DNA of 64,000 bases from Amphibalanus amphitrite (lineage: Eukaryota; Arthropoda; Thecostraca; Balanomorpha; Balanidae). This document shows positions 2,540 through 64,000 of this stretch, in pieces. Under the pieces are notes generated by a model that ran no database searches, was not told the origin of the DNA, and saw only the letters and a program-made list of their open reading frames with translations. A program made the translations under genes and the position numbers. The stretch covers positions 496,001-560,000 of the forward strand of contig NW_024881854.1 of assembly GCF_019059575.1 (NCBI RefSeq), written 5' to 3'. The first letter of the stretch is position 1, and each line of letters starts with the position of its first letter.

Positions 2540-3738
2540 TTAACCCGCGCCCGGCTGGGGGTCCTGGATTTCCACGCCCTGCTGGGGGGGGGGGGTGTTT
2601 GAACACCCCCCCTTCTAACTCGGCTCCTGGGCCACGTAGCGATAAGCAGAAGGCGGCGTTCGAAAGAGCGTCAAAAATAATGACGAAATCACTTCGATCA
2701 ATTTTTTGGTCAGGTCAAAGGTCAGGTCACCAGAGGTCATTGAAGGCAAAATTTCGCCGATTTCCAGGTCAAATGTCGAAAATTTCCAAGAAGCCAACGC
2801 ATAACTCGGGAACTAATAGAGCTACAGCGCCGCGGAAAAGCGCATTCGATAGCCCTACTAACGCCCTTTCTGAGCAATTCTCTCAGATTTGACCTAACGT
2901 CAACGGTTTTGCCTGCAGGGGGCAAAAACTGCAAAAATAGCCGATTTTTTCGGAAACAGTTTTTCTGCAATAACTTTTGACCCAAGCCTCATACGAGCTT
3001 ACTTTTACCGGCATCGTGTTTCTCTCGTCAAGACGCATCGAATGAACTATAACTTGACCTTGAAAGGTCAACTTGAAAATTTGACCTCAGGTCAAGGTCA
3101 TGACCTGACCGGAAAGGGTCATGTTGCATATCAGTCGATCCGTATCGTCGAGCTGAACACATCTAAGGTGTTTTCATCGCTCTAGCATGCCTCTATCAAA
3201 AGTTATTTGCGAAAAACTGTTAGATACCATTCGTGACCTAAGATGACCTCAGGGCATAAGCAGGGGTCACGGACACCATTTTCATGTCCAGTGTGTCTAA
3301 ACCACTTGTAATTCAGTGTTTGGGAGTGTTTATAATGTCTTTCGTCCAAAAGAGACGCATTTCAATTTTCTCCCATTGACTTATAATGGGGAGGTCGCAA
3401 AATTGACCTGACCTTAGGTCATCGATATCAAAATTCTGAGATAAACATTTTATACATGCTATTGCTCTTAGCAATCGCTGAAAGTTTCAAAGCGATCGGT
3501 CACTCGGTGTAGCTATGACAGACATTGAAACTTTTTATGAGGTGAGGTCACTTCAAGTGACCTGGTGACCTGACCTTGAATGACCTTGGTCTGAAATTTT
3601 TACAACATGTGTAGAATTGATGCATGATAAGGTGTACCAAAAACGGCGGCGCTCCGCGCCGCCGTTTTTGAGATATTCGCGAAAAACCACAAGGGGGGTG
3701 TTCAAACACCCCCCCCCCCCCAGCAGGGCGCGGGTTAA
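2540..3738 (+). mobile_element. Family A TTAA element
   Basis: TTAA at 2540-2543 and 3735-3738 bound a 1.2-kb element. The left end carries two tips (CGCCCGGCTGGGGG and CGCCCTGCTGGGGG) 27 bp apart and the right end carries one. G-run/C-run hairpins around GTGTTTGAACAC lie at both ends. A palindrome of GGCGGCGC type lies at about 3646-3670. I count about 28 GGTCA or TGACC pentamers in the core. It sits in family B between ATTTAGCA and TTTGAACATT, and uninterrupted B copies show the empty site. Non-coding. Confidence 0.85.
2712..2724 (+). promoter_or_regulatory. Perfect DR1 nuclear-receptor site in family A
   Basis: AGGTCA-A-AGGTCA is the ideal DR1 element bound by RXR/USP, HNF4 and COUP-type receptors. 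The same 13-mer recurs in the other well preserved A copies (30511, 48227, 49715, 51227 and, inverted, 23933 and 60026). Confidence 0.45.
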
Positions 3739-3757
3739 TTTGAACATTTACGATTTA

Positions 3758-5028
3758 AGCCCGGTTCTGACTGCCGTTTTTCGATCGTTTGGTGGATCGT
3801 ATGGTGATCGTATCGTGATCGTATGGTGATGGGATGGGGATCGGCACGCTCGTTTCCCGATCGCCGCGATGGTAATCGTATGTGTGCAGTGAGAACCGGG
3901 AAAAAACGTGACTGTGCGCGTCGTTCGGTAGCGGCAGATCGTACGTCGTATTGCGTTCCGTCGAAAGATGGATTGAGTTTATCTTTTGTCTTGATTGTAT
4001 CGTACAGTTGACATCGTGTGGAGAACTCGCTGTGCTGCTGCTTTTCTTGCTGCTGTCTTGTGGAAGGTTTGTGCTAACATATTTGATATCAATTTGATAT
4101 AACTTATCTTATCAGTACAGTAGCATACTCTAAATAAATAAGCTTGATTGACATACTTATAATCAAAGTAGGTACTTCCACTTAGAAGATACCATACGAA
4201 AAATCATTGTTTCGTTCAGATGCGTCAATTACATCTGTCAAAGTATTAATTTTATTGCACGAAAAAGCCTCACCCGATAATGTTAATTTGATACTTAAAT
4301 TAAAGAAATGTTTTAACTACATTTAACCTCTTTTTAAGTCTGAAAAGTATTAATTACCCTCTTTATAGATCTCGTCCCGTTCACTGCGGCCAATCAACGC
4401 GCTTCCCCCAGATGACGTCATCTGTGCGCCTGCGCTCTGCCGAGCCGGCAAGCCTCGTGGTGACCGGCGATTTACCGGCGACACCGGAGGTGGTAGGAGG
4501 TGGTACATAGATATCTTACCAATGAATTTCTGTCAATTTCAACGAACCGATTTTCAAGAAAACCGATGCAAGGATTCACAATACTCACTTTTAGGTTGTA
4601 GGTTACTTTCCAGGACAATTTGACATTATTTTCTATTTTCCACGCATTTTCAAAATCGCGTACCTTCCACGGCCGAGAATGGTTTCCACCGCCATGCCGC
4701 TCCAATCAAGCCGAAATGTTGATAAACTTCACGGAACAGTCAGACCCGACTATTCAAACTAAATTATTGAATTAGAGAGATGTTTCAAACTACATTTAAC
4801 GTCTCTTTAAGCGTAAAAAGTATTTATCTCGTTCTTATCTATCACCGCCGGCAGTAATGGCGGACGCAGACTCCCACACGATACGCACGATCCGCACGAT
4901 ACGATCTACCAGTTACCAGATCGTATCGGGCCTAGAGATTTTCATCTTTTTCCGCCAGCCACGCTCACCATACGATCACCATACGCTTACCATCCGCTCC
5001 GATCGATTTCGGCAGTCAGAACCGGGCT
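3758..5028. mobile_element. Inverted-repeat DNA element with TTA target duplication
   Basis: The ends AGCCCGGTTCTGACTGCCG (3758) and its complement (ending 5028) are near-perfect terminal inverted repeats flanked by TTA at 3755-3757 and 5029-5031. A 3-bp TTA/TAA duplication is typical of PIF/Harbinger elements. Subterminal ATCGTATGGTG repeats appear at both ends. An internal block around 4300-4370 is repeated around 4755-4840. No transposase frame is visible, so it is a non-autonomous copy. The uninterrupted B copy at 18152 shows the pre-insertion site. Confidence 0.75.
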
Positions 5029-5313
5029 TTAGTCTTGGTGCCTTCGTAACACGTTACGAGGCCTTCAGAGGCGGTTAACATCTACTACGAATACCCGGCA
5101 AAACCCTTACTAGTGACCTGATCTGACCTGACCCGACTTGGCCTAAATGCATGAAGACATCATCTATGATGGCATAACTATAACATGATATTCGTGATCT
5201 GCACCCCGAAAAACCACATAACAGCCATGCTATACGACGTTCTGATAGGTCCTGATTTCCCCGACTTTTGGGTCATTTACCTGACCTGGAAGGTCGACCG
5301 ATGATCTAGGGCC

Positions 5314-6255
5314 TTAACCCTAGAACGCCTAGGGGGGGGTGTATCAACCCCCCCCTGAGGTTTTTTCGAAGTGCACGCTAAACGGCTTGTCGTAGCGGGC
5401 TGAAATTTTCAATACCCTCTGGGGCAACCTTTGCGCATCTTTTGCCGAAAAAAATTGATCGGGTCATGTCAGGTCACGGAGTTATGACGTCATAAGAGGT
5501 ACAGCCTCCGGCCGACAGTTACCAAACGTGTGCGCCGAATCCCTAGGTTTTCTGCCGGTGATACCCACATTGTTTGATGGATCATGATGAAACTTCCCAT
5601 GCATGTTGGGGCAAGCATTGGCTATCGTGTGGTGCAAGAAAATTGACCGGGTCAGGTCAGGTCACGGAGCTATGACGTCACAAGAGGAACAGCGTCCGGT
5701 ACTATTTTAAAAAAGCGCCCGAACCACTATTTTGCTAATTCTTGTCACCTCAATGGGAATATGCAGCAATATTAGCTTCTATAGGGAGCAAATGGACCTC
5801 CCAAATCCAAAAATACAATCAGATTTCAAAAATTTAAATTTTGATTTTTCGAATTTCTGCCGCCGACTGTGGCCTTGCCGACTTCCGGCGCTCCCAACGC
5901 GCCATTTTTAGAGCTAGGGAAACGAAATACATACCAAACGATAGAGAATTGATCAAGGAACACAATAGTGAAGGTTTCAAGTCGATATCTCCTACCGTTT
6001 TGCTGCAATCGCCGCGGAAAGTTGAAAAAGTTTGATTTTTCGGAAAATTTGACCTTTGACCGGTCATAAGTAGGTCAAATGTTGACCTAGGACCAAAAAA
6101 TATACCACCAATCACGAGATCTCGTTGAGAGCAATCCGTTGGTTTTTCCGCTAAGCTCTACGACCTTCCGTTTCGAAACGCCAGGGGGGGTCGTAACAAC
6201 CCCCCCCCCCTGGTCGTTCGTGTTATGAGAAATGGCCTGGTCATGCGAGGGTTAA
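5314..6255 (+). mobile_element. Family C TTAA element
   Basis: TTAA at 5314-5317 and 6252-6255. The left end reads CCCTAGAACGCCTAGG; the right end has tip GACCAGG in two copies 27 bp apart. It begins the chain inserted at a TTAA of family B (CCTTAAAATTGGG in the intact copy). Its right TTAA is also the left TTAA of the next element. Its core is closely similar to 19492-20448. Confidence 0.8.
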
Positions 6256-7441
6256 CCCTCGCCCCGTTGGGGGGGGCCATTTTGGCCCTCCCCCTGTGGT
6301 TTTTCCTAAATAGCAAGAAAATGGCGGCGCGCAGCGCCGCCAAATTTTCAGTACCTTTCCGGGCATCAATTTGACACCTTCACACCAAATTTCAAGTCTT
6401 AGGTCACCTTAGGTCAGGAGTTATTGAGGTCAAACTGAGGTCATGTTCGAGCAAAAATGAGCAAAAAACATGCAATCTTGAAACGCTCACCAAATCTACA
6501 GTTATCAAGCAATTTCAAAGTTCTTTATATGGTCTAATAGACAAAAAGCGGCGCTACAAAACTGTTATCTCGGATTTTCAAAATTTTGGGTTTTTGACCC
6601 AAAAAAATTCAAAAAATTGATTTTTTTTAGAAAAACTAAAAAAAATCCAAAATTTTTCCGAATTTCGAAAAAAAACCGGAATATATGTGATAGTCCCTGC
6701 GCTCTTCTATATACATACTAAATTTCAGATCGATATCTCGTTTTTTGGCCAAGTTATAGCGAAAAAACTGTTCAAAAATGATGACGTCAAATTTTTGAAC
6801 TCAATTTTTAGCGATTCTAGACCTCGTACGGCAAAACAAAGACCACCATTGAACTTCCCGTGACAAGCTGCATCGATTCGATATCCATTTTATGCAAAAA
6901 TATCAACTTTGAAATTTGACCCTATTTGACCTGACCTTGACCTGACCTTGACCTGACCTTGACCAAAACGTGACCTAAGCTGGCCCCAAAGGCTGCCTGA
7001 CCCACATAATCGCATTTGTCATGTAAAATGGACCATAAAACATGTATCACACGACACTTTCATAATGTGACCCCCCAGTGACCTGACCTCAGTGACCTGA
7101 CCTGGTATCAGTGACCTCAACTAGCAAAATATGTGTTTGAAGAACATTTCCCCATCGATGATTTTCAATGAAATGCATTTTACTCGATTTTACAACGCAT
7201 TTCTTGAAATGCCTGTAAACGGTGAAAATTGGACCTTTGACCTGACCTGTGACGTCATCGGTTTGACCTAGGTCAATAAAATTGGGTCACAAGGTAGTTC
7301 CCTGATAGGGCTATCCAACACCGTTTGCCGCTTGTCGCTACGTTGCGTGGTTCTCGAGATCTTAGGGGGGGGGGCCAAAATGGCCCCCCCCCCCCCCAAC
7401 GGGGCGCGTTGCTCGGCAGAGCCCAACGGGGCGCGGGTTAA
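6252..7441 (+). mobile_element. Family D TTAA element
   Basis: It shares TTAA 6252-6255 with the C element on its left and TTAA 7438-7441 with E on its right. The left tip is CGCCCCGTTGGGG; at the right the same tip occurs twice, 27 bp apart. A GC palindrome lies near the left end (about 6320-6340). The core includes an A/T-rich stretch (6560-6800) and a TGACCTTGACC block around 6930-6960. A second copy lies at 11920-13130. Confidence 0.8.
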
Positions 7442-8463
7442 CCCTATTCCTGGCGGGGGGGCCTCAGGAGCCCCCCCTGAGGTTTTTTGGTTATTTCTCC
7501 CAAACGCGTTGAGCTAGGAAGCTCAAATTTTCTGACTTTTCCTAAAAGGCTTCTACGCAACATGTCTTAAAATTTTGAGTTGATCTGACCTCAGGTCAGG
7601 TCACCAGAGGCGGATTGGTGACCCTACCTCAGAAAAGTTTGCAATCACGCCAGAGCTAGAGTTTTTGACCGATCAATTTCTTCTCTTCAGGCTTTAGTTA
7701 GGGTACCAGTATGTGCAATTTGTATATCTCGGAATTTTGATATCGGTGACCTAAGGTCAGGTCAGTTTCGCGACCTCCCCATTATAAGTCAATGGGGGAA
7801 AAATCAGCTCCCTGCTTTTACCACTAAAACGGGTCGGAATGGCCCCATATACCATACATGACTTCATATACTTCATATACATTCATATACATGACATTCA
7901 TATACTCCTTTACTACCTTGAGGTCTGTTTTGCTGTTGGGCAGCTGTGAGGTCATGTGACGTCATCAAAGGTCACCAAAGGTTTTTGGCCAATAACTCCG
8001 TACAGGAACAAGATACAGACGCGTGGATGGTCTCATTGTGTTCAGCTCGTCAAGACGCATCGAATGATATACATGATGACCTCGAGGTCACGTGACCTGA
8101 GGTCAACCTTTGACCTTGACCGTTCGAGGTCAACATATATATCATTCGATGCGGATTGACGAGAGGATCACGATGATGCCCTTAGTTTGTTCCTATCTTG
8201 ACTAATTCGAAAGTTATTCGAGAAAAACTCTCACCATATCTAGCGCCGCCATTTTGACTTTTTCGACCCCTGTGACGTCATCTTTGACCTGACCTGAAAA
8301 TGACCTTTTTAAAAACTGTAGATCTTGACCGTGCGAATCCGATGCCGTTTGCCGTTTGTCGCTGCGATGTGTACTTTTTGAGATCTGAGGGCGGGGGGGC
8401 CGAATCGCCCCCCCCCCCCCGCCAGTTTCTTGTCCCGGCGGAGCCCGCCAGGAATAGGGTTAA
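7438..8463 (+). mobile_element. Family E TTAA element (core like family H, different tips)
   Basis: It is bounded by TTAA 7438-7441 and 8460-8463, with tips CCCTATTCCTGGCGGG at both ends and an inner tip copy at the right 26 bp inside. Its core (7620-8330) closely follows family H, including the block with CCATTATAAGTCAATGGGGG and the central GCATCGAATGATATA arms, although the ends differ. This is a tip-swapped relative of H. Confidence 0.75.
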
Positions 8464-10699
8464 CCTTCGCCCCAGTGGGGGGGGCATATGTTACCACCCT
8501 GTCGCGTTATTCGCGTGTGAATAAAAAACCGCGGCGCGTAGCGCCGCGCCGCTTGGGGTAGCTTTTGGTACATCAATTTTGGACAATGTGTAAAATTTTG
8601 ACCCCAGGTCATGTCAGGTCAGGTCACCAGGTCAAGTTAACTGACCAAGCCGGCGAGGTCCGGCGAGGTCCGGCGAGGGTTAACCCTCGCCGGACCTATT
8701 GGTTTTCTACATACGCGCCGGCCGAGGGGGGGGGGGCGGGTAAGACCCCCCCTCGCCGTTTCGCCCCTTGTGGAGCTAGCGCGTCGCGGAAAAAACGAGC
8801 GTGTGCGCCGTTACAAGACGCAGAGATTGGTACCTGATTTTAAGGTCCTAGGTCAACCGGTGACCTCTGAGGTCAGGTCAAGTGCCCCAGGGTACGGTTC
8901 GGTTTTTGGTGAATAACTTTGCAAAAAACGGCCGCAGAGCCGCGATTTTGGCAACATCGTGTTCGCCTCGCTCAGGCGCGTCGAATGATATACTTTTTGT
9001 TCGGGTCAGGTCAACTTGGGGTGTTGACCTCAGGTCAAGGTCAGGTCAGCACCCCCAGGTCACGAAGTTGGTCGAAAGAGGTCATGTCGCATATCATTCG
9101 ATTCGGCAGGTCTTCCTGAGTCCAATGATGGCTTTCGCGACTCGCTAGCTCAATTTGATCGGGAGTTATTGACGAAAAACTAATATGACCTTGATGACGT
9201 CATAAATGACGTCACGCAAGGTCAACATTGCAAAAGTGACGCATCTAACCTTGCAAGGAGTGCATCAAATCACGATTCTGTGTGCTTGAGATAGTTGGAG
9301 ATCGTTCCCGGCGCCAGAATAGCAGTTTTCATTTTTCCCCATTGACTTATAATGGTGAGGTCACGAAAATGACCTGACCTCATATGACCTTTAGGAAAAA
9401 TCCGAGATATACAAGTTGTGACACTCATAATGGATAGTAGATCCTGTAAGTTTCATTTCCCTGTGACATCTCCTCTGGCAGTGAGGGCGTTGCGAAGTTG
9501 CGACATCTGAAGACCGTGCAGAGGTTCACTTATGACGTCATAGGTCAGTGACCTGACCTGACCCAAAAATGCGGTTGGTGTCAAAAGATGCGTCTTGGAT
9601 CAAAGGTCATGTATGCTAAGTTTCAGCTCTCTATCGCCAGCTGTTCGGAGCTATCGCGAAAAAAACCCTATGGGGGGGGCGGCACCCGCCCCCCCCCCTC
9701 GGCCGGCGAGGGTTAAAAAAAGTTTGCAATCATGTCCAGCCTGCAGTGTTTGTCAAAAAGGTTTTAAACTTGGTGGATTGCATGCTGTTATGGGAGCCTA
9801 CAATTTGTATATCTCGGATTTTTTATATCCGTGACCTAAGGTCAGGTCAGTGGCATGACCTTTCCATTACAAGTCAATGGAGAAAAACGAAAATGCCTCT
9901 AGATCCGTGTGTACGCATAGGAACAGTCCAAATATTTCAGAATCACAATGATTTAGTCCACTCGTGATGACCAAGGTGTCATTTTTGCTGATAGCCTCTA
10001 GAAAGGTCATCCGAGGTCATTTGAGGCTACAAACAGTTTTTTGCCAATAACTCGCGATTGGAAAGAGATAGAACGCTGGGGATGGTCTCATTGTGTTTGT
10101 CTTGTTGAGACGCATCGACTGATATGCAACATGACCTTTTCCGGTCAGGTCATGACCTTGACCTGAGGTCAAATTTTAAGTTGACCTTTTAAGGTCAAAT
10201 TATAGTTCATTCGACGCGTATCGAAGAGGGGAACACGATTCTGGCAATAGAAATGTCGTGGCTTTTTGTAGTCGAAAGTTATTGTCGAAAAACACTTTTC
10301 GTAAAAACAGCTATTTTTGGAGTTTTTGCCCTCTGGAGGCTAAACCGTTGACCTGAGGACAATATTGATAATGACCTTTTCAAAAGAAGAGTTCAAAATC
10401 TATCGATTGCTTTTCCATGCGTTTTTCTAGTTACCATAGTTCCTGAGAGAGCGGCATGTTTTCTGAAAAATATAATGACAATTGGCAAATTTTGACCTTT
10501 GATGACCTCTGGTGACCCCAATATTGCTCTAAGGTGAAAAATGACCGAAATACTTTCAAACGTACGCATTGAGAGCTATCGACTGCTTTTTGCCGCGTCT
10601 TTCTAGCCCTCTTAGTTTTTGAGTTAGAGGTGGGTGGTAACATATGCCCCCCCTCACTAGGGCGAAGTTGGCCGAGACCGCCACTGGGGCGCGGGTTAA
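8460..10699 (+). mobile_element. Family F TTAA element, split by a G element
   Basis: The outer TTAAs are 8460-8463 and 10696-10699. Without the G insertion it would match the 1190-bp intact copy at 36669-37858. The left end has CGCCCCAGTGGGG and a GC palindrome at about 8530-8550; the right end has the tip twice, 27 bp apart. It is the last member of the chain placed in family B and is followed directly by B sequence at 10700. Confidence 0.8.
8680..9716 (+). mobile_element. Family G TTAA element
   Basis: TTAA at 8680-8683 and 9713-9716. The tips contain CCCTCGCCGG; the left end has the tip twice, 28 bp apart. It is inserted at a TTAA of family F: the intact F copy reads GACCAAGCC-TTAA-AAAAAG across the site. 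Just left of it, 8652-8679 holds three 10-bp copies of the element's own tip (GGCGAGGTCC and variants). Confidence 0.8.
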
Positions 10700-10853
10700 A
10701 ATTGGGTATCAACGGCTTTCTGACGTGACGGGCAACACGCTCGTTTTTACCGTGAAGTTCTAGCTCGATCAGGGGCTAAAGGCGAGGGGGGTCGTACCCC
10801 CCCCCCCCCCGTGTGCCGTCGAAGGACGCAAAATGACCTGTGCCGGCGAGGGT

Positions 10854-11306
10854 CGGGTCGAGGTCAGGACTCAGGACAGTGGTCTAATCGTGCGAAGGGA
10901 GAAGAGACCTGGGATGGAACTTCCACATTAGGGAAACGAATTAGGGTGACTACCATGAAACGTCACGGATGTAGGTATGTATGTGTTTATGATTGTTGTC
11001 CCCTATCCAAGGAATGACACTTTCTGGCGGACCTGAGGGTGTGGCTGACCCGAGACCTGTACTTTCCGCTCAGGAGGTGCGTCCCCTCATGGACCGCCTG
11101 TGCGACGAGCTGAAGGGTCTGAAGGAAGCCGTCATAACTCTGACGGAACAGCAGTCGCCGCCGGCGGCCGGCCCGCACACCCGGCCCCAGAGTTCCGCGG
11201 AGCTGCGGGACGCGGTGCTGGCCGACGTTCGCGACATGCTGAACGAGGAGCTGCGGCAGCTGCGCCGAGAGCTGCAGGAGCTGAGCGTGAGTCAGGGGGA
11301 TGGTCT
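10854..11306 (+). repeat. Duplicated segment carrying a nucleoporin exon (copy 1)
   Basis: This segment matches 14374-14819 with few differences, including intron, splice acceptor, exon and donor. The right boundary joins family F sequence at a shared GGGGA. Family B precedes it on the left. Confidence 0.8.
11074..11286 (+). CDS. Nucleoporin coiled-coil exon, upstream duplicate
   Basis: The sequence has an acceptor (CCGCTCAG ending 11073) and a donor (GTGAGT from 11287). The exon is 213 bp, exactly 71 codons, phase 0 at both sides. It encodes a charged heptad-rich helix (begins EVRPLMDRLCDELKGLKEAV, ends RRELQELS), likely a coiled coil. It is nearly identical to the exon at 14589-14801, with Asp for Asn at one site. 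Its downstream intron is replaced within about 20 bp of the donor by family F sequence. It could be skipped, used instead of, or spliced in tandem with the other copy without shifting the frame; which of these happens cannot be told from DNA. Confidence 0.55.
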
Positions 11307-11923
11307 CATTGTGTTTGTCTTGTTGAGACGCATCGACTGATATGCATCATGACCTTTTCCGGTAAGGTCATGACCTTGACCTGAGGTCAAATTTTGAAGT
11401 TACCTTTCAATGTCAAATTATAGTTCTTTCGACGCGTCTCGACGAGGGGAACACGATTCTGTTACTAAAAATGTGGTGGCTTTTGGTAGTCGAAAGTTAT
11501 TGTCGAAAAACACTTTTCGTAAAAACAGCTATTTTTGGAGTTTTTGCCCTCTGGAGGCTAAAATATTGACCTGAGGTCAATATTGATAATGACCTTTTCA
11601 AAAGAAATGTTCAAAAGCTATCGATTGCTTTTCCATGTTTTTTTCTAGCTACCATAGTTTCTGAGATAGCGGCATGTTTTCTGAAAAATATCATGACAAT
11701 TGGCAAATTTTGACCTTTGATGACGTCTGGTGACCCCAATGTTGCTCTAAGGTGAAAAATGACCCAAGTACTTTCAAACGTACGCATTGAGAGCTATCGA
11801 CTGCTTTTTACCGCGTCTTTCTAGCCCTCTTAGTTTTTGAGTTAGAGGTGGGTGGTAACATATGCCCCCCCCCCCCCCACTAGGGCGAAGCTGGCTGAGA
11901 CCGCGATCTGGGGCGCGGGTTAA
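11302..11923 (+). mobile_element. Family F right half, 5-prime truncated
   Basis: It matches 10079-10699 and ends with the family F double tip and TTAA 11920-11923. The left side is joined to the duplicated exon segment. Confidence 0.75.
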
Positions 11924-13130
11924 CCCGCGACCTGGTGGGGGGGCTATTTTTGCCCCCCTCCAGACTTTTTGATATATCTCCAAAACCGCTGCGCCGATCG
12001 TCACCAAACTTTCAGTACCCTCCCGGACATCAATTTTACACATTGTGACCAAAAATTTTTCCAAAGGCTATGATAGGTTGGCTGGAAATGACGTCAGAGT
12101 GACGTCATGTTTTGCCGTTTTCGACCCAAAAAAGGGTTTCGTGGGAAGAGCTGTCAGGCCTATAGCTTTGCAAATACAGAAAAATGATAAGGACATAAAA
12201 GCTGTAGATTGGACAGGGCTACAAAACTGCTATCTCGGATTTTTGAAATTAATGGATTTTGACCCCTAAAAATCAAAAAATAGATTTTTTGGATATAATA
12301 ATCGAAAAATCCAAAAAGTTTTTTGATTTTCGCAAAAACCGGAATATATGTGATAGTCCCTACCGCCTTCCATCCACATACCAAATTTGAGATTGATACC
12401 GCTATTTTTTTGGCGAAGTTATAGCGAAAAAAACTGTTCAAAATTGATGACGTCAAATTTTCAAACCCAATTTTTAGCAATTCTAGACCCCGTAGCGCAA
12501 AACAAAGACCACCTTTAGACTCCCCGTGACGAGCTGCATCGAATCAATACCTACTTTATGCAAAACTATCAACTTTAAAATTTGACCTTTTTTCGCCTGA
12601 CCTTGACCTGACCTTGACCTGAACTTCACCAGAAAGTGACCTAAGCCGTACCTGATAGTCTTATAACCAACACCATTGAGTTGGAAATGAAAAATTGGCC
12701 ATAAAACATGTATCACACAACCTTAGTAAAGTTGAGCTCATGTGACCTGACCTGTGACCCTTGGTGACCTGACCTGTGACCTGACCTGTTATTACCAGTG
12801 ACCTCTAATAGCAACATATCTACTAGGCAACTGACGCCCTATCGCTGATTCTCGACAAAATGCGTTTTCCTCGGTGTTATAGCGCATTCCCTAGAAGACC
12901 CGTGAACGGTGAAACATTTTATCTTTGACCTAACCTGTGACGTCATCGGTGACCCCGAGGTCAATGAAATTTGGTTTTATTCGACAAATTTGACAGGCCT
13001 TTCGAACGCCGTTTGAATTTTGCGGATCTGTCCAGTAGTTTCGGAGATACGAGGGGGGGGGGGCAAAAGATAGCCCCCCCCCCCCCCACCAGGTCGCGTT
13101 ATGAACAGACCCCACCAGGGCGCGGGTTAA
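11920..13130 (+). mobile_element. Family D TTAA element, copy 2
   Basis: It is bounded by TTAA 11920-11923 and 13127-13130, both shared with neighbours. The tips read CGACCTGGTGGGG at the left and CGCCCTGGTGGGG at the right, with the inner copy about 27 bp in. The core follows 6252-7441 closely. Confidence 0.8.
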
Positions 13131-14135
13131 CCCGCGCACCGACGGGGGTCTGCGCCAACTTAGTACCGACGGGGGGGCGGATGACCGCCCCCCCCCCTGA
13201 GATCTCGAGAACGAAGCAAGATAGCGACAAGCGGCAAACGGCATCGGATACGCACGGTCAAGATCTACAATTTTTACAAAGGTCATTTTCAGGTCAGGTC
13301 AAAGATGACGTCACAGGGGTCGAAAAAGTCAAAATGGCGGCGCTAAATATGGAGAGAGTTTTTCTCGAATAACTTTCGAATTAGTCAAGATAGGAACAAA
13401 CTAAGGGCATCATCGTGATCCTCTCGTCAATCCGCATCGAATGATATATATGTTGACCTCGAAAGGGCAAGGTCAAAGGTTGACCTCAGGTCACGTGACC
13501 TCGAGGTCGTCATGTATATCATTCGATGCGTCTTGACGAGCTGAACACAATGAGACCATCCACGCGTCTGTATCTTGTTCCTGTACGGAGTTATTGGCCA
13601 AAAACCTTTGGTGACCTTTGATGACGTCACATGACCTCACAGCTGCCCAACAGCAAAAAAGACCTCAAGGTAGTGAAAGTTGATCGTATATGAAGTCATG
13701 TATGGTATATGGGGCCATTCCGACCCGTTTTAGTGGAAAAACAGGTAGTTGCTTTTTCCCCCATTGACTTATAATGGGGAGGTCGCGAAATCGACCTGAC
13801 CTTAGGTCACCGATATCAAAATTCCGAGATATACAAATTGTAGCTAATAATGACCTAATAACATCCTGCGACTTGCAAAGGCCTCCGACATCTACTGTAG
13901 CTCTGGCACGGTGACAAATTTGCAAAAAAGTGACTTGAGGTTGGGTCATTCAAAGTGACCTGGTGACCTGACCTTGAAAGGTAGGAGGTTTAAACTTGCA
14001 CACCATGTGTAAAATTGATAAGGGAATAGTCATACTAAATTTCGCGGCGCTACGCGCCGCGGTTTTCCCGCTATTCGCGAAAAACCTCAGGGGGGGGGGC
14101 GGATATCCGGCCCCACTCGTCGGTGCGCGGGTTAA
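13127..14135 (-). mobile_element. Family H TTAA element
   Basis: TTAA at 13127-13130 and 14132-14135. On this strand the double-tip end comes first (GCACCGACGGGGG, inner ACCGACGGGGG 27 bp in) and the GC palindrome comes near the right end (about 14041-14062). It is the minus-strand counterpart of 26146-27162. Confidence 0.8.
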
Positions 14136-14149
14136 AAACTGAGCTCTTG

Positions 14150-14340: not shown

Positions 14341-14588
14341 AGTGCAGTGGGTCGCGGATTGAAGGTGTTGACCTCGGGTCGAGGTCAGGACAGTGGTCTA
14401 ATCGTGCGCAGGGAGAAGAGACCTGGGATGGAACTTCCACATTAGAGAAACGAATTAGGTTTTTTTTTACTACTCTGAACGTCACGGATGTATGTATGTG
14501 TTTATGATTGTTGTGCCCTATCCAAGGAATGACACTTTCTGGCGGACCTGAGGGTGTGGCTGACCCGAGACCTGTACTCTCCGCTCAG

Positions 14589-14801
14589 GAGGTGCGTCCC
14601 CTCATGGACCGCCTGTGCAACGAGCTGAAGGGTCTGAAGGAAGCCGTCATAACTCTGACGGAACAGCAGTCGCCGCCGGCGGCCGGCCCGCACACCCGGC
14701 CCCAGAGTTCCGCGGAGCTGCGGGACGCGGTGCTGGCCGACGTTCGCGACATGCTGAACGAGGAGCTGCGGCAGCTGCGCCGAGAGCTGCAGGAGCTGAG
14801 C
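14589..14801 (+). CDS. FG-nucleoporin gene, coiled-coil exon
   Basis: The exon lies between an acceptor (CCGCTCAG, ends 14588) and a donor (GTGAGT from 14802), is 71 codons long and phase 0 at both ends. It encodes a charged, leucine-rich helix expected to form a coiled coil, as nucleoporins use to assemble subcomplexes. The next exons in the same phase carry FG repeats, so I read it as part of an FG nucleoporin acting in the nuclear pore. Which one is open: Nup358, Nup214 and Nup153 all combine other domains with FG regions. No exon upstream is recognisable. The other copy is at 11074-11286; this one is followed by the normal intron. Confidence 0.65.
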
Positions 14802-15112
14802 GTGAGTCAGGGGGACGGCGATTCAGGCCCACTGGGACGGAGCGCTGCTGGCCCGTCAAACCCCGCGGTGGGTGGCCTCTGCAGTCACAACAATGTCCGA
14901 CCGCATCATCAATGGCAGAGACCTTCACTGTGCTGACCATGTTTATCTCACACCCTTGTTGATTTAACCATCGCCGGTATGTTGTGTCGGATCTCATCAC
15001 GTTGCAAGGAACGATAAGTGTTGTGCATGCATTCTTGCGTATCGTGCTCCTAGATAGTGTCCCGTTGTCACTGAAGTATCCAGCTCTGACACTCCTTCTG
15101 CCCATTCGGCAG

Positions 15113-17159: not shown

Positions 17160-17163
17160 GTGA

Positions 17164-17319: not shown

Positions 17320-17930
17320 TTAACCCTCGCCCATGTAGGGGGGGGGTGCAACCCCCCCTGAGGTTTTTCTTAGCTACACGCCGAACCGTTTCAGATAGCC
17401 TGCTCAAATTTTCAGTACCCTTTGGGGCATCCTTTGCGCAACTTTTGTTTTTTTGTCAAGGTCATGTCAGGTCACGGAGTTATGACGTCATAAAGGGAAC
17501 AACCTCCAGCCAGATTTACGCTAAATTGGAGATTGCTTCACATTGGTATAAATGCCGACTGACCTGACACACTGATGGATTGTTTTAGAATCACAACTGG
17601 CTGATTTGACATTGGCACAATGTCCGTTGACATTTTGAAGGTTACTAAAGGTCAAGGTAAGGTCAGTGACCTCGGTTGACCTGTAATGACTTCTTGCACT
17701 TGTATGCCTTTTCGGGGTGTTTTGATGCCCTGAATTCGAACTTGCTATCCATTTCAGGCATCGTCGGATGTTTCTTGTAGTTCATTTGGGGTCAGGGTCA
17801 GGTCAGTGACGTCACACGCCTGACGTGACCCAATGCACAAATGACCTTGCAGACTTCCGATGCTCCCAACGCATCATTTTTAGAGTTATGACATCGAAAT
17901 ACACACCAAACGATAGAGAATTGATCGAGG

Positions 17931-18023
17931 CATGGGTGGAGAACCTGCCCCGGCCACCCCGGCCGTGGCCGGGGTAACCTTCGGCCGACCCCGGCGCGGC
18001 CGGGGTAACTTTTTCCACTTTTG
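17931..18023. mobile_element. 93-bp GC-rich insert with 8-bp flanking repeat
   Basis: It is absent from the other C copies. It is flanked by GATCGAGG at 17923-17930 and 18024-18031. Inside, CCCCGGCC and GGCCGGGGTAAC words are repeated and can pair. The 8-bp duplication would suit an hAT-type mini-element. Confidence 0.5.
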
Positions 18024-18151
18024 GATCGAGGATCACGACAGTGAAGATTTCAAGTCGATATCTCTTACAGTTTTGCCGCGATCGGCGCGGAAATCTGAAA
18101 AAGTTAGATTTTTCCGAAAAATTGACCTTTGACCGGTCATAAGTAGGTCAA

Positions 18152-19032
18152 ATATTAACCCTCGCATGTGTAGGGGGGGGGGGTCGGATGGACCCCCCCC
18201 ATGGTTTTTCGCGAATAACTCGCGTAAAAAGCGGCCGATCGCGACGAAACTTTCAGTACCCTCGCATTGATCAATTTTACACCTATCCTGAAAATTTCAT
18301 GACCCTGACCCAAAGGACCTTTGACCTGTGACCTCTTTTCCGAGACCATGTTTGGCCGTAATCGCGATTTCGCGTATGTCGGCTCGCACTAGCCGCACGT
18401 TTGCAAGCTTTTCGTGGTTTCAAACGTTCAAACATGTGATTTGATGTTACTCCCGTGGGTGTCAAGGTCACCTGAAGGTCAGGTCAGATCATTGACCTTT
18501 GGTGACCTCGGGTGACCTCGGTTCACTTTTTCGAGTTTTACATGTTTCTAGGCTAGTTTTTGGAGCTGAATTCGAATTTAGCAACCATTTGAACATTTAC
18601 GAAGTAGTTTTGGTGACTTCGTAACATGTTACGAAGCTGTCAGAGGTGGTTGACACATACTACGAATACCCGTCACGACGCCTACTGGTTGACCTGACCT
18701 GACCTGACCCGACCTGGTCTAAATGCTTCAAGACATCATCCGTGATCAAAACTAACACGATATTCGTGATCAGCACCCCGAAAACCCCTTAGCAGTCACA
18801 CTTTACGACTTTCTAACAGGTCCCGATTTTCCCGACTTTGGGTCATTGACCTGACCTGGAAGGTCAACCAATGACCTAGGACCTTAAAATTGGGTATCAT
18901 CGGCTTCCTCTCGTCACGGGCAACACGCTCGTTTTTTCCGCGAAGCTCTAGTTCGATCAGGGGCCAAACGGCAAGGGGGGGGTCCAACCGACCCCCCCTA
19001 CACAGCTGGAAAACGCCGCACACATGCGAGGG
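18152..19032 (+). mobile_element. Family B element, most complete uninterrupted copy
   Basis: The left end is TTAACCCTCGCATGTGTAGG with a G-run/C-run hairpin; the right end CACATGCGAGGG has an inner TGTGTAGG copy 20 bp inside. It sits in family C, but the right TTAA is absent and about 30 bp of C sequence expected at the site is missing, so the insertion is not clean. The core has paired AGGTCA half-sites and a CTTCGTAACATGTTACGAAG palindrome. Confidence 0.75.
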
Positions 19033-19175
19033 TATCGCGAGATCTCGTTGAGAGCAATCCGTTGGTCTTTTCCGCTAAGCTCTATGACGCTCCGTTTTCA
19101 AACGCCAGGGGGGTCGCACCCCCCCCCCCCTACATGGGCGAAGGTGGCAAAACACCGTTTACGGGCGAGGGTTAA

Positions 19176-20448: not shown

Positions 20449-20540
20449 CGTAATATGCTGGGCTTTTGCAGCGCTGGCATTAGTCAGTAACTGCTAATAA
20501 ATAACTCCATACCCTTTTGCATGATGATATAGAAGACTGT

Positions 20541-21449
20541 GAACCCTCGCCCGCACATGGGGTTCCCCCCCCCCCCCCCAGGTAGGCTTTCTGCTCTGCA
20601 CTCAATATCTTTAGAGCTAGAAGCCTGATTTTTCGTGTAGCTGCTCCTCTATCCTTTCTTGATGTCCACTGAAAATTTCAACTTTCAGGTTTCTGTTTTT
20701 TCGGAGATATGACTTTCTTTTTCAGGTCATGTCATGACCCAAATGACCAATTATTAACATCTTGCGTTGGCTATGGGCCTTATGAGCTTTTGACACCTTG
20801 CTTTCGGCCTTTTTTTTGCCAGTCTTACCTCCCACCTATCATGGAACATGTTGTTCGACGATGTACTGATGTCAAGGTCAGGGTCTAGGTCAACCTAGGT
20901 CATCTAAAATAATTGCGTTAGGCAAGTTGAATTTGCTTTTCGTGAATTTTTTGACTGTATTTTTGGTAAAAGCTTCTCAGATTATGATTTCATGTAGGTA
21001 ATATGGACACATAAACAATCGGTGCACACATCAGTATACACACAGACACACACAGACATACAAACACATATCATTGACCTTGACCTAGCTTGACCTGAAA
21101 TGACCTCAGCCGCAAAAACCTGGTCGGGAAGTGTGACAAAGAGGTTCTAGCTGGCTTGGTACCAGAAAACGGCATCGTCATCGGTATATGATAAGCAGCG
21201 CACTTGATATCCAACGGTGACCCAAAACAGGAACATTTTTTAGTTTAACCTGACCTGGAAGGTCAATGACTGACCTGAGAAGGTAAAACTGGGTATCATT
21301 GTATTCGTCTCTTCCCAAAGAATCTTTTTGGTCTTTACCGCGAAGCTCTATCTTCAACAGGAACGAAATGGCGCGGGGGGGGGGGTGGTGGTGGCAACCC
21401 CCCATGTGCGTTCTAGGATGGTAAAATGGCATGTGCGGGCGAGGGTTAA
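20541..21449 (+). mobile_element. Family I TTAA element
   Basis: The left end reads TGAACCCTCGCCCGCACATG (TTAA decayed to TGAA); the right end TTAA is 21446-21449 with tip CGCACATG and an inner copy 27 bp in. The right 170 bp resembles the right end of family B. The rest of the core is its own. Confidence 0.7.
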
Positions 21450-46365: not shown

Positions 46366-46373
46366 CATGGGGT

Positions 46374-48226: not shown

Positions 48227-49380
48227 TTAACCCGCGCCCGGCTGGGGGTCCTGGATTTCCACGCCCTGCTGGGGGGGGGGGGGTGTTTGAACACCCCCCC
48301 CTTCTAACTCGGCTCCTGGGCCACGTAGCGATACGCGGAAGGCGGCGTTCGAAAGAGCGTCAAAAATAATGAGGAAATCACTTCGGTCAATTTTTTGGTC
48401 AGGTCAAAGGTCAGGTCACCAGAGGTCATTGAAGGCAAATTTTCGCCGATTTCCAGGTCGAATGTCGAAAATTTCCAAGAAGCCAACGCATAACTCGGGA
48501 ACCAATAGAGCTACAGCGCTGCGGAAAAGCGCATTCGATAGCCTTATTAACGCCCTTTCTGAGTAATTTTCTCAGATTTGACCTAACGTCAACGGTTTTG
48601 CCTGCAGGGGGCAAAAACTGCAAAAATAGCCGATTTTTTCGGAAACAGTTTTTCTGCAATAACTTTTGACCCAAGCATTGTACGAGCTTACTTTTACCGG
48701 CATCGTGTTCCTCTCGTCAAGACGCATCGAACGAACTATAATTTGACCTTGAAAGGTCAACTTGAAAATTTGACCTCAGGTCAAGGTCATGACCTGACCA
48801 GAAAGGGTCATGTTGCATATCAGTCGATCCGTATCGTCGAGCTGAACACATCTAAGGCGTTTTCATCGCTCTAGCATGCCTCTATCAAAAGTTATTTGCG
48901 AAAAACTGTTAGATACCATTCGTGACCTAAGATGACCTCAGGGCATAAACAGGGGTCACAGACACCATTTTCATGTTCAGTGTGTCTAAACCACTTGTAA
49001 TTCAGTGTTTGGGAGTGTTTATAATGTCTTTCGTCCAAAACAGGCGCATTTCAATTTTCTCCCATTGACTTATAATGGTGAGGTCGCAAAATTGACCTGA
49101 CCTTAGGTCATCGATATCAAAATTCTGAGATATACATTTTGTACATGCTAATGCTCTTAGCAATCGCTGAAAGTTTCAAAGCGATCGGTCACTCGGTGTA
49201 GCTATGACAGACATTAAAACTTTTTATGAGGTGAGGTCACTTCGAGTGACCTGGTGACCTGACCTTGAATGACCTTGGTCTGAAATTTTCACAACATGTG
49301 TAGAATTGATGTATGATATTCGCGAAAAACCTTAGGGGGGGTGTTCAAACACCCCCCCCCCCCAGCAGGGCGCGGGTTAA
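48227..49380 (+). mobile_element. Family A TTAA element lacking the GC palindrome
   Basis: TTAA at 48227-48230 and 49377-49380. It is nearly identical to 30511-31706, except that about 45 bp including the whole GC palindrome are absent at about 49317, leaving ATGATATTCGCG. Confidence 0.85.
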
Positions 49381-49714: not shown

Positions 49715-50911
49715 TTAACCCGCGCCCGGCTGGGGGTCCTGGATTTCCACGCCCTGCTGGGGGGGGGGGGTGTTTGAACACCCCCCTTCTAACTCGGCTC
49801 CTGGGCCACGTAGCGACACGCGGAAGGCGGCGTTCGAAAGAGCGTCAAAAATAATGAGGAAATCACTTCGGTCAATTTTTTGGTCAGGTCAAAGGTCAGG
49901 TCACCAGAGGTCATTGAAGGCAAAATTTCGCCGATTTCAAGGTCGAATGTCGACAATTTCCAAGAAGCCAACGTATAACTCGGGAACCAATAGAGCTACA
50001 GCGGCGCGGAAAAGCGCATTCGATAGCCCTATTAACGCCCTTTCTGAGTAATTCTCTCAGATTTGACCTAACGTCAACGGTTTTGCCTGCAGGGGGCAAA
50101 AACTGCAAAAATAGCCGATTTTTTCGGAAACAGTTTTTCTGCAATAACTTTTGACTCAAGCCTTGTACGAGCTTACTTTTACCGGCATCGTGTTCCTCTC
50201 GTCAAGACGCATCGAATGAACTATAACTTGACCTTGAAAGGTCAACTTGAAAATTTGACCTCAGGTCAAGGTCATGACCTGACCGGAAAGGGTCATGTTG
50301 CATATCAGTCGATCCGTATCGTCGAGCTGAACACATCTAAGGCGTTTTCATCGCTCTAGCATGCCTCTATCAAAAGTTATTTGCGAAAAACTGTTAGATA
50401 CTATTCGTGACCTTAGATGACCTCAGGGCATAAACAGGGGTCACGGACACCATTTTCATGTTCAGTGTGTCTAAACCACTTGTAATTCAGTGTTTGGGAG
50501 TGTTTATAATGTCTTTCGTCCAAAAGAGGCGCATTTGAATTTTCTCCCATTGACTTATAATGGGGAGGTCGCAAAATTGACCTGACCTTAGGTCATCGAT
50601 ATCAAAATTCTGAGATATACATTTTGTACATGCTGTTGCTCTTAGCAATCGCTGAAAGTTTCAAAGCAATCGGTCACTCGGTGTAGCTATGACAGACATT
50701 GAAACTTTTTATGAGGTGAGGTCACTTCAAGTGACCTGGTGACCTGACCTTGAATGACCTTGGTCTGAAAATTTTACAACATGTGTAGAATTGATGTATG
50801 ATAAGGTATACCAAAAACGGCGGCGCTCCGCGCCGCCGTTTTTGAGATATTCGCGAAAAACCACAGGGGGGGGGTGTTCAAACACCCCCCCCCCAGCAGG
50901 GCGCGGGTTAA
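49715..50911 (+). mobile_element. Family A TTAA element
   Basis: TTAA at 49715-49718 and 50908-50911, with the full family plan. The right TTAA is also the start of a short family G tip. Confidence 0.85.
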
Positions 50912-51067: not shown

Positions 51068-53268
51068 TTAACCCTCGCACCGACGGGGGGCGGATATCCG
51101 CCCCCCCCCCCCCTGAGGTTTTTCGCGAATAGCGGGAAAACCGCGGCGTGTAGCGCCGCGAAATTTAGTATGACTATAACCTCATCAATTTTACACATGG
51201 TGTGCAAGTTTGAACCTCCTACCTTTTTAACCCGCGCCCGGCTGGGGGTCCTGGATTTCCACGCCCTGCTGGGGGGGGGGGGGTGTTTGAACACCCCCCC
51301 TTGTAACTCGGCTCCTGGGCCACGTAGCGATACGCGGAAGGCGGCGTTCGAAAGAGCGTCAAAAATAATGACGAAATCACTTCGGTCAATTTTTTGGTCA
51401 GGTCAAAGGTCAGGTCACCAGAGGTCATTGAAGGCAAAATTTCGCCGATTTCCAGGTCGAATGGCGAAAATTTCCAAGAACCCAACGCATAACTCGGGAA
51501 CCAATAGAGCTACAGCGCCGCGGAAAAGCGCATTCGATAGCCCTATTAACGCCCTTTCTGAGTAATTCTCTCAGATTTGACCTAACGTCAACGGTTTTGC
51601 CTGCAGGGGGCAAAAAATGCAAAAATAGCCGATTTTTTCGGAAACAGTTTTTCTGCAATAACTTTTGACCCAAGCCCTGTACGAGCTTACTTTTACCGGC
51701 ATCGTGTTCCTCTCGTCAAGACGCATCGAATGAACTATAACTTGACCTTGAAACGTCAACTTGAAAATTTGACCTCAGGTCAAGGTCATGACCTGACCGG
51801 AAAGGGTCATGTTGCATATCAGTCGATCCGTATCGTCGAGCTGAACACATCTAAGGCGTTTTCATCGCTCTAGCATGCCTCTATCAAAAGTTATTTGCGA
51901 AAAACTGTTAGATACCATTCGTGACCTAAGATGACCTCAGGGCATAAACAAGGGTCACGGACACCATTTTCATGTTCAGTGTGTCTAAACCACTTGTAAT
52001 TCGGTGTTTGGGAGTGTTTATAATGTCTTTCATCCAAAAGAGGCGCATTTCAATTTTCTCCCATTGACTTATAATGGGGAGGTCGCAAAATTGACCTGAC
52101 CTTAGGTCATCGATATCAAAATTCTGAGATATACATTTTGTACATGCTATTGCTCTTAGCAATCGCTGAAAGTTTCAAAGCGATCGGTCACTCGGTGTAG
52201 CTATGACAGACATTGAAACTTTTTATGAGGTGAGGTCACTTCAAGTGACCTGGTGACCTGACCTTGAATGACCTTGGTCTGAAATTTTCACAACATGTGT
52301 AGAATTGATGTATGATAAGGTGTACCAAAAACGGCGGCGCTCCGCGCCGCCGTTTTTGAGATATTCGCGAAAAACCACAAGGGGGGGTGTTCAAACACCC
52401 CCCCCCAGCAGGGCGCGGGTTAAGGTCAGGTCACCAGGTCACTTTGAATGACCCAACCTCAAGTCACTTTTTTGCAACGTTGTCACCGTGCCAGAGCTAC
52501 AGTAGATGTCGGAGGCCTTTGAAAGTCGCAGGATATTATTAGGTCATTAGTAGTACAATTTGTATATCTCGGAATTTTGATATTGGTGACCTCAGGTCAG
52601 GTCAATTTCGCGACCTCCCCATTATAAGTCAATGGGGGAAAAATCAACTCCCTGTTTTTACCACTAAAACGGGTCGGAATGGCCCCATATACCATACATG
52701 ACTTCATATACGATCAACCTTCACTACCTTGAGGTCTGTTTTGCTGTTGGGCAGCTGTGAGGTCATGTGACGTCATCAAAGGTCACCAAAGGTTTTTGGC
52801 CAATAACTCCGTAGAGGAACAAGATACAGACGCGTGGATGGTCTCATTGTGTTCAGCTCGTCAAGACGCATCGAATGATATACATGATGACCTCGAGGTC
52901 ACAAGACCTGAGGTCAACCTTTGACCTTGACCTTTCGAGGTCAACATATATATCATTCGATGCGGATTGACGAGAGGATCACGATGATGCCCTTAGTTTG
53001 TTCCTATCTTGACTAATTCGAAAGTTATTCGAGAAAAACTCTCTCCATATCTAGCGCCGCCATTTTGACTTTTTCGACCCCTGTGACGTCATCTTTGACC
53101 TGACCTGAAAATGACCTTTGTAAAAATTGTAGATCTTGGCCGTGCGTATCCGATGCCGTTTACCGCTTGTCGCTATCCTGCTTCGTTCTCGAGATCTCAG
53201 GGGGGGGCGGTCATCCGCGCCCCCGTCGGTGCGAAGTTGGCGCAGACCCCCGTCGGTGCGCGGGTTAA
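51068..53268 (+). mobile_element. Family H TTAA element split by an A element
   Basis: Outer TTAAs are 51068-51071 and 53265-53268. The H sequence breaks at 51227 and resumes after 52423. The intact H at 26146 reads ACTTTTAAGGTCAGG across this site, so the A element landed on an existing TTAA. Confidence 0.85.
51227..52423 (+). mobile_element. Family A TTAA element inside family H
   Basis: TTAA at 51227-51230 and 52420-52423, with the full plan including the DR1 site and GC palindrome. It is the third A copy within 4.2 kb, all in the same orientation. Confidence 0.85.
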
Positions 53269-60025: not shown

Positions 60026-61226
60026 TTAACCCGCGCCCTGCTGGGGGGGGGGGTGTTTGAACACCCCCCCTTGTGGTTTTTCGCGAATATTTCAAAAACG
60101 GCGGCGCGGAGCGCCGCCGTTTTTGGTACACCTTATCATACATCAATTCTACACATGTTGTGAAAATTTCAGACCAAGGTCATTCAAGGTCAGGTCACCA
60201 GGTCACTTGAAGTGACCTCACCTCATAAAAAGTTTCAATGTCTGTCATAGCCACACCGAGTGACCGATCACTTTGAAACTTTCAGCGATTGCTAAGAGCA
60301 ATAGCATGTACAAAATGTATATCTCAGAATTTTGATATCGATGACCTAAGGTCAGGTCAATTTTGCGACCTCCCCATTATAAGTCAATGGGAGAAAATTG
60401 AAATGCGCCTCTTTTGGATGAAAGACATTATAAACACTCCCAAACACCGAATTACAAGTGGTTCAGACACACTGAACATGAAAATGGTGTCCGTGACCCT
60501 TGTTTATGCCCTGAGGTCATCTTAGGTCACGAATGGTATCTAAGAGTTTTTCGCAAATAACTTTTGATAGAGGCATGCTAGAGCGATGAAAACGCCTTAG
60601 ATGTGTTCAGCTCGACGATACGGATCGACTGATATGCAACATGACCCTTCCCGGTCTGGTCATGACCTTGACCTGAGGTCAAATTTTCAAGTTGACCTTT
60701 CAAGGTCAAGTTATAGTTCATTCGATGCGTCTTGACGAGAGGAACACGATGCTGGTGAAAGTAAGCTCGTACAAGGCTTGGGTCAAAAGTTATTGCAGAA
60801 AAACTGTTTTCGAAAAAATCGGCTATTTTTGCAGTTTTTGCCCCCTGCAGGCAAAACCGTTGACGTTAGGTCAAATCTGAGAGAATTACTCAGAAAGGGC
60901 GTTAATAGGGCTATCGAATGCGCTTTTCCGCGGCGCTGTAGCTCTATTGGTTCCCGAGTTATGCGTTGGCTTCTTTGAAATTTTCGACATTCGACCTTGA
61001 AATCGGCGAAATTTTGCCTTCAATGACCTCTGGTGACCTGACCTTTGACCTGACCAAAAAATTGACCGAAGTGATTTCGTCATTATTTTTGACGCTCTTT
61101 CGAACGCCGCCTTCCGCGTATCGCTACGTGGCCCAGGAGCCGAGTTACAAGGGGGGGGGTGTTCAAACACCCCCCCCCCCCCAGCAGGGCGTGGAAATCC
61201 AGGACCCCCAGCGGGGCGCGGGTTAA
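60026..61226 (-). mobile_element. Family A TTAA element inserted in the BEL element
   Basis: TTAA at 60026-60029 and 61223-61226, with the full family plan in minus orientation (single tip and GC palindrome left, double tip right). It lies between the gag and pol parts of the BEL element, so it is younger than that insertion. Confidence 0.9.
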
Positions 61227-62981: not shown

Positions 62982-63355
62982 TACTTAAATAAATGTAAGA
63001 GGTGCAAATAATAGTTTAAATACTGCAATAACAAAACAAAAAATAAAGCACAAAAAATTGTGACCCAAAACCAGTGTTAACACGTCAAGGTCAGACGTCC
63101 AGGTGCTGAGGCCAAAACTCAAGGTCAAAGTGACAAATACAGGTGTGTCTAGCTACAAACACCTCTACTAGTCAACCATCATGCATGATACGACAGGGGG
63201 AATCCTACTAACAACCCTGCGTAACCACTGACTGTCCTAGAATCTACAACCAGTTGATATTCATTCAGTGCAACTGAAACTGTTAAAAGAAGAAAATAAA
63301 GACAATCTTTCAACTACAAAGTCTCAAAATCAGGACTAGATCCTAAAAGTTTTAC

Positions 63356-63615
63356 TGTAACGGCCATTCAAATCAATTTCTACAGATAGACCGCCATTCT
63401 ACTAGGTGCCGCTATATTGTACGTAAAACATTAATCAATTATCAATGGACAATAATCTTACTTTTGTGGGATCTGACGTCCCAGTATCACAATCGTATGT
63501 GTCAATGGCCACGCTTCACCGCGTGCCACGCCCTGTTCAAGGTTCTATTAATTGGAGGCGGCAAATTGGGGAAAAGAAAACATCGCTGCCCAATGACCTC
63601 TGGGCGGCGGTTACA
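63356..63615 (-). repeat. BEL/Pao 5-prime LTR
   Basis: Nearly identical to 54951-55209, with the same TGTAAC and GTTACA ends. Confidence 0.85.
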
Positions 63616-63900
63616 GAACTGACGTTCATGACGTTCACATCCAACCATTTTACGTTCAGTGTAGCGGGAACTACAGATTTGACCCGATACTGATCGGATG
63701 GTCGGTGGGACCGTCTCTTGTCTTGTCTCTTCCGTCTCTTCGAAATCACTGACATATCGCTACAGGCGTCGACGTAGAAACTGGCGGGGGACGGGGGTCA
63801 TGACCTCTAACATTAATACGCATAACACGCTGCAAACCAGGGGTCTTCCTTCGAACCAGGGTCCTTCAATCGGTCTTGGCCTAGCAAAAATAGTCACGTG
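63616..63900. other. Flank right of the BEL element
   Basis: No gene or known repeat is recognised. Confidence 0.4.
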
Positions 63901-64000
63901 TTAACCCGCGCCCCGTAGGGCTACCGGCGGACCCTACCACCCGTAGGGGGGGGGCGTTTCGGCCCCCCTAAGATCTCGGAAAGTTACCGTCCGATTTTCA
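63901..64000 (+). mobile_element. Start of another TTAA element (family L), cut by the window
   Basis: TTAA at 63901-63904, then CCCGCGCCCCGTAGGG with an inner CCCGTAGGGG 28 bp in, then a G-run/C-run hairpin around GGGGCGTTTCGGCCCC. This is the double-tip end of a family not otherwise present here. Confidence 0.7.

Follow-up and report, generated by a model that had tools for sequence, protein, structure and literature searches.

Why should a transposable element carry its own tip once at one end and twice at the other? The question is raised by a 64,000-nt stretch of Amphibalanus amphitrite DNA (contig NW_024881854.1, positions 496,001 to 560,000 of the forward strand; hereafter the window), all along which lie TTAA-bounded elements with CCC...GGG ends and a length of ~0.8–1.2 kb excluding nested insertions. 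A preliminary description had reported this arrangement with a distance of about 27 bp between the two copies, and we recovered it at 27 double-tip ends belonging to 14 families (A, B, C, D, E, F, G, H, J, K, M, N, O and P; our lettering need not equal the earlier one). We read these elements as non-autonomous piggyBac-superfamily members that share their asymmetric end map with piggyBac from Trichoplusia ni (T. ni), and in which the two copies would be paired transposase sites working most likely by the known piggyBac mechanism, and give this reading a probability of about 0.85.

The tip is doubled at one end and covaries between families

Counting from the first base pair after TTAA, the family-specific word of the tip occupies bp 7–13. 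At the single-tip end it occurs once and is as a rule followed by a G-run; at the double-tip end it occurs twice, and there the inner copy precedes the G-run. In the family A element at 2540–3738 (minus strand; double-tip end 2540, single-tip end 3738) the outer word lies at 2550–2556 and the inner word at 2577–2583, followed by a palindrome of G-run, TGTTTGAACA and C-run (2584–2612, no strand assigned) that corresponds in place to the C-terminal-domain site in piggyBac. The same disposition is found on the plus strand in family D (6252–7441; outer word 7425–7431, inner word 7398–7404, 7/7 identical), in the family C copy C2 (19492–20448; 20432–20438 and 20405–20411) and in family H (26146–27162; 27146–27152 and 27119–27125). 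The best offset of the inner copy, scored on one representative per family with ties resolved towards 27, was 27 bp in 8 of the 14 families (A, B, C, D, F, H, M and P), 26 in three (E, G and N), 28 in two (K and O) and 20 in J, so that 13 families fell within 26–28. Ties arose at the C ends 20448 (27/23) and 6255 (27/18/23), at B 19175 (27/29), at K 28509 (28/33) and in J (20/18). Over 12 families the outer-to-inner match peaked at an offset of 27 (4.33/7, compared with 2.84 for the words of other families at the same position); all 12-family statistics leave out J and P, which have a degenerate outer TTAA, as well as M's single-tip end; the 14-family versions include all three. A match of at least 5/7 at 26–28 bp was present at 23 of the 27 double-tip ends (the misses being both B ends, J and P), compared with 23 of 383 other TTAA starts; since the double-tip ends were chosen by inspection, the former count is not a blind one. 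Three single-tip ends (6252, 8460 and 52423) likewise reached 5/7 in this range, within or adjoining their C-run.

The tips differ between families and the inner copy tracks the outer one, as had been proposed. When family labels were permuted with one representative per family, the observed outer-inner match of bp 7–13 at 26–28 bp in 14 families (74/98 letters, compared with 45.7 under shuffling) was not equalled in 100,000 shuffles, and the same held for bp 10–13 only (47/56 versus 25.9; 0/100,000). The single word of the opposite end followed both copies, matching the inner one at 74/91 letters (42.8 shuffled) and the outer one at 79/91 (40.0 shuffled), each with 0/100,000 shuffles as high; restriction of these two pairings to bp 10–13 likewise left the observed match unreached in 100,000 shuffles. 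Among the 8 families whose outer word starts with CCC, bp 10–13 still matched at 27/32 letters versus 16.3 shuffled (6/100,000). Over the longer interval of bp 7–45, the opposite end best matched the double-tip interior of its own family in 8 of 10 families, with E and N as exceptions (0/100,000 shuffles). The doubled-tip observation is confirmed, well above chance.

The earlier statement that the inner copy matches its own outer copy held as change in step and failed as identity. In 10 families the opposite end agreed with the inner copy at 61/70 positions and with the outer copy at 58/70, and the outer and inner copies agreed with each other at 55/70. Of 13 families, A, B, C, G and K have an opposite end nearer to the inner copy, and E, F, H, J, M, N and P one nearer to the outer copy; in D the two are equally near. 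Bp 10 in family A is G or C in the outer word of 6/7 copies, and T in 7/7 inner copies and 7/7 single-tip ends. We also observed that the inner word starts with AA in 4 of the 14 families (C, E, M and N), where the outer word starts with CA, TC or CC.

Layout of the ends and its likeness to piggyBac

The three letters adjoining TTAA are CCC at all 27 double-tip ends and at 26 of the 28 single-tip ends, the remaining two reading CCT; bp 4 is T at 10/27 double-tip and 17/28 single-tip ends and otherwise G, and bp 5–6 are mostly CG. With one end taken per family, C predominates at bp 7–9 of the outer double-tip copy; bp 10–13, which are among the least conserved end positions, hold little shared information. 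In the register of the inner copy, bp 1 and 4 are unconserved, C stands at bp 2 and 3 in 8 and 7 of 12 cases, bp 5 is C in 9/12 and bp 6 is G in 10/12. Neither TTAA nor CCC(G/T)CG occurs within bp 15–48 of any of the 27 double-tip ends, so that the inner copy seems to be a site of binding without cleavage.

Two further features of the ends, beyond the preliminary description, are a palindrome behind the tip and a T5 box at the other end; both aid in identifying the elements. The palindrome, in which a short insert specific to the family lies between a G-run and a C-run, stands behind the word at both ends. A scan covering 21 of the 27 double-tip and 21 of the 28 single-tip ends placed its centre 24.5–33 bp from the single tip in 21/21 ends (searched range 18–45) and 52.5–62.5 bp from the double tip in 20/21 (searched range 45–70), the K end at 28509 scoring highest at 45; the scores were weak for F and N. 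The inserts agree between both ends of a family (0.750 versus 0.451; 0/20,000 shuffles, 10 families). A TTTTT box within bp 30–80 was found at 24/28 single-tip ends (it is absent from F 8460, N 23929, M 20540 and R 39697) and at 0/27 double-tip ends. The polarity of the ends is intrinsic, being marked by this box independently of the tip. By eye, the T5 box is followed at bp ~70–100 by another GC-rich inverted repeat on the single-tip ends of A (except 49380), B (41636), D, F and H. No partner is assigned to the single-tip-like ends 39697 (R), 50908 (Q) and 21451, which were excluded from the pair tests, and family O has no opposite end inside the window.

This layout agrees with that of T. 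ni piggyBac, whose tip letters are CCC: both have a TTAA target and a CCC tip, repeat a segment beginning at bp 7 ~27 bp inside one end only (here at 26–28 bp in 13/14 families, exactly 27 in 8), and place a palindromic internal repeat behind the word at both ends, nearer at one. The TTAA target site duplication of the piggyBac superfamily is seen here at the insertion of an A element into an H element, and its terminal CC(C/T) at the tips; the longer form CC(C/T)T, cited in PMC2872659, is present only in part, because position 4 is often G. According to Chen et al. 2020 (PMC7351741), the right end of T. ni piggyBac (IFP2), RE63, has a duplicated segment compared with the left end, LE35, with bp 34–63 of the former almost identical to bp 7–35 of the latter at an offset of 27, and with a palindrome behind the repeat. 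The duplicate tip itself is already known as a piggyBac trait, and the earlier claim that it was undescribed does not stand, although paired transposase-binding sites would, by analogy, still be the best-supported reading. What the window adds is the three-way covariation over many families, of which we found no description in the open-licence literature.

The same study reports that helices bearing a catalytic residue track bp 2–6, that the DNA-binding domain contacts bp 7–16 and opens the major groove at bp 9–14, and that a dimer of the C-terminal domain sits on the palindrome at bp 17–33 of one end. Transposition fell by about half when the second copy was randomised or 5 bp were inserted, and the authors, who call the asymmetric end 'a puzzling arrangement', propose an inner non-catalytic dimer (PMC7351741). 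The window elements agree with the T. ni map in order and spacing, with a looser palindrome spacing; they differ from it in having a word that varies over 14 families and long G/C runs on either side of the palindrome, and in measuring ~0.8–1.2 kb before nesting, with no coding match found. For piggyBat of Myotis lucifugus, one report describes a motif repeated at 44-bp steps at the left end (PMC11707139), and a 2026 preprint describes a tetramer that is asymmetric and has an inner dimer without catalytic role (PMC13405395). The window elements share with piggyBat the asymmetric ends and a repeated core-binding motif followed by a palindrome, and a second, non-catalytic dimer like the one reported for piggyBat would be a further likeness; the spacing differs (~27 bp here, 44 there), as does the palindrome, which stands behind the inner copy only instead of after each copy.

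By this likeness of layout, a single-tip end would offer the transposase CCC(T/G)CG, the word at bp 7–13 (most variable at bp 10–13) and the G-run/C-run palindrome, and a double-tip end would offer a like tip and word and then, beyond a spacer, the word once more, 26–28 bp inward and before its palindrome. Bp 2–6 would face the catalytic part of the protein, the DNA-binding domain would recognise bp 7–16, and a pair of C-terminal cysteine-rich domains would occupy the palindrome. A catalytic dimer may then sit on the outer pair of tips, and the inner copy with the palindrome of the double-tip end may bind a second, non-catalytic dimer promoting synapsis of the unlike ends. Since a single transposase has to recognise all three words, a shift in its specificity would alter them jointly, and, in the light of the published piggyBac and piggyBat work, the families probably answer to different transposase specificities. 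The presence of 14 families in one 64-kb stretch, 13 of them keeping the arrangement as the word changes, gives comparative support for the inner copy as a working transposase site, and the matched end sets form a table usable for working out how piggyBac-type transposases change their sequence specificity.

Several observations weigh against the piggyBac reading or narrow it. The offset of 20 in J is off-register compared with the other families, the outer and inner copies match at only 4/7 in B and P, and in the second K copy the offset of 28 is tied with 33. The outer word has C at bp 7–9 in 10–11 of 12 families, so that only part of it varies freely, and the G-run differs in length among copies of one family, which makes the tip-to-palindrome spacing looser than in T. 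ni. The 44-bp spacing of piggyBat implies that 27 is not a constant of the superfamily. Finally, the transposase domain DDE_Tnp_1_7 (PF13843) had no match in the 18 open reading frames (ORFs) tested out of the window's 28 of at least 120 aa. Nor was any Pfam family found in the tested ORFs that overlap elements (2491, 12971, 51017, 17160 and 29417), on which ground we rejected a coding role for the elements.

The strongest of the other explanations, itself unlikely, is that the inner copy is a functionless relic of one ancestral tandem duplication, with its likeness to the outer copy kept by descent or by gene conversion among tips. The families are indeed related, sharing cores at about 66–92% identity between families, and 5 of 13 families have an opposite end that resembles the inner copy more than the outer one, as conversion between the ends could give. 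However, word and offset have been kept in 13/14 families though bp 10–13 change between them, and a functionless copy sits poorly with the approximate halving of T. ni piggyBac activity on randomisation of its second copy (PMC7351741). Convergence on piggyBac-like ends by another TTAA-targeting superfamily, such as Kolobok, is less probable still. Kolobok shares the TTAA target, and the tested ORFs gave no transposase match; yet the termini given for Kolobok/T2 in PMC6004289, RR or AGGRR adjoining TTAA, disagree with the CCC or CCT found here (CCC in 27/27 double-tip ends), and we rejected a Kolobok identity on these termini. The +27 map, too, is that of T. ni piggyBac. That the pattern arose by chance, or by selection of G/C-rich ends by eye, has a negligible probability: G-runs and C-runs do give easy partial matches, the ends were picked by inspection and three single-tip ends also reach 5/7, but bp 7–13 precede the G-run in most families, and the T5 marker, which is independent of the tip, separates the two kinds of end. 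An artefact of chance or of the G-runs was rejected on the label shuffles and the background of other TTAA starts.

Probable exchange between cores and ends

The piggyBac-type ends are joined to cores that do not always follow them. Copy C2 (19492–20448) and the family B element at 40682–41636 (minus strand) are 90–100% identical per 50 columns over most of the core, but only 60–64% in the opening 100 columns and 50% close to the double-tip end. Over columns 201–350, C2 is nearer to B (100, 96 and 96%) than to the other copy of its own family, C1 (72, 88 and 86%; 5314–6255, plus strand, single-tip end 5314, double-tip end 6255). The elements of families E (7438–8463, plus strand) and H (26146–27162), with core blocks mostly 92–100% identical and ends that differ, rise from ~50% to 96% identity some 300 columns in, remain mostly at 94–100% apart from one 30% block caused by an indel, and fall to 50–60% near the double-tip end. 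In comparison, two H copies are mostly 92–100% identical to each other throughout, with one 80% block near the double-tip end. Since the core of C2 is in places nearer to B than to C1, ends and cores appear to recombine as modules.

The simplest account has cores exchanged through gene conversion or interrupted gap repair while the ends stayed put; the reverse route, in which ends would be replaced on kept cores, is a possible, less simple alternative. We tentatively propose, as an idea less likely to be right than wrong, that the tip words, the inner duplicate and the palindromes form an exchangeable specificity cassette, that cores (or end sets) pass between families through gene conversion or gap repair whose boundaries fall within the element, and that one core may thereby be served by several piggyBac-type transposases. 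If this were true, the window would be a natural experiment in which the three binding sites of an element switch together with the core staying mostly 90–100% identical. A partial precedent is offered by the CMITEs of the coral Acropora, piggyBac-type TTAA elements that form tandem arrays and in which the interior is better conserved from family to family than the terminal inverted repeats are (PMC2872659), much as the cores here are better conserved than the ends; CMITEs differ in being only ~100 bp long, and the accessible text of that report mentions no inner tip copy for them.

The hexamer AGGTCA/TGACCT, the nuclear-receptor half-site word, occurs 378 times in the 24,562 bases of annotated elements (15.4/kb) and 96 times in the rest (2.4/kb), the rest including some unannotated element sequence. 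A single exact-pattern scan of viral contigs with one conserved core stretch returned no related copy.

Nested insertions and other features of the window

Insertion at TTAA is documented by two nested elements. The H element at 51068–53268 (plus strand) is split by a family A element (51227–52423) at a TTAA that is single in the uninterrupted H copy at 26146 and present on each side of the insert; the minus-strand H copy at 13127–14135, with its double-tip end at 13127, has TCAA at this site. Similarly, the family F element at 8460–10699 (plus strand) is split by a K element (8680–9716, minus strand; double-tip end 8680, offset 28), with TTAA on both sides of K, extra sequence on its left, and a single TTAA at the corresponding site of the uninterrupted F copy at 36669–37858 (minus strand). 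Left of K (8650–8720) we observed a 14-bp exact inverted copy of the K tip across the TTAA, so that a perfect palindrome of 32 bp has the TTAA at its centre, and a short tandem repeat lies outside this palindrome; this extra sequence is absent from the uninterrupted F copy. The inverted tip copy could be a trace of off-centre hairpin opening, which is comparable to the formation of P nucleotides in V(D)J joining.

Neighbours of different families share one TTAA at six junctions (6252, 7438, 8460, 11920, 13127 and 50908), compared with 2.67 expected in a crude random-insertion simulation (P of at least six = 0.031). On the plus strand there are also a family F fragment at 11296–11923 (double-tip end 11923, offset 28) and the family G element at 11920–13130 (offset 26). 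Further along, a family B copy at 17320–19175 (plus strand) is apparently split by the family J element at 18155–19036 (plus strand), which carries the exceptional offset of 20 and has TATC in place of TTAA in its right 4-bp slot. The plus-strand elements of families M (20540–21449, offset 27) and P (21575–22484, offset 27 at a 4/7 match) have TGAA in the left and ATAA in the right TTAA slot, respectively. The family N element (23118–23929, offset 26) and the second K copy (28509–29538, with the tie noted above) are on the minus strand. Other family A elements lie at 23933–25138 on the plus strand and at 30511–31706, 48227–49380 and 49715–50911 on the minus strand. At the far edge of the window, the family O double-tip end (63901–64000, plus strand, offset 28) belongs to an element continuing past the window.

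The last family A element, at 60026–61226 (plus strand), has TTAA on each side and lies between two minus-strand Pao-type retroelement ORFs. The recognised ORFs of the window are Pao-type retroelement ORFs (Peptidase_A17, DUF5641 and DUF1759) and an FG-nucleoporin-like ORF (31.1 bits, just missing the Pfam cut-off of 32.2). The window looks eukaryotic. A gene-like stretch upstream of the FG-nucleoporin-like ORF is contained in a 94% identical duplicate (10853–11303 and 14374–14818), and 1012–2306 is taken up by a long array in which short repeats of the AAAATATCGAA type occur in both orientations.

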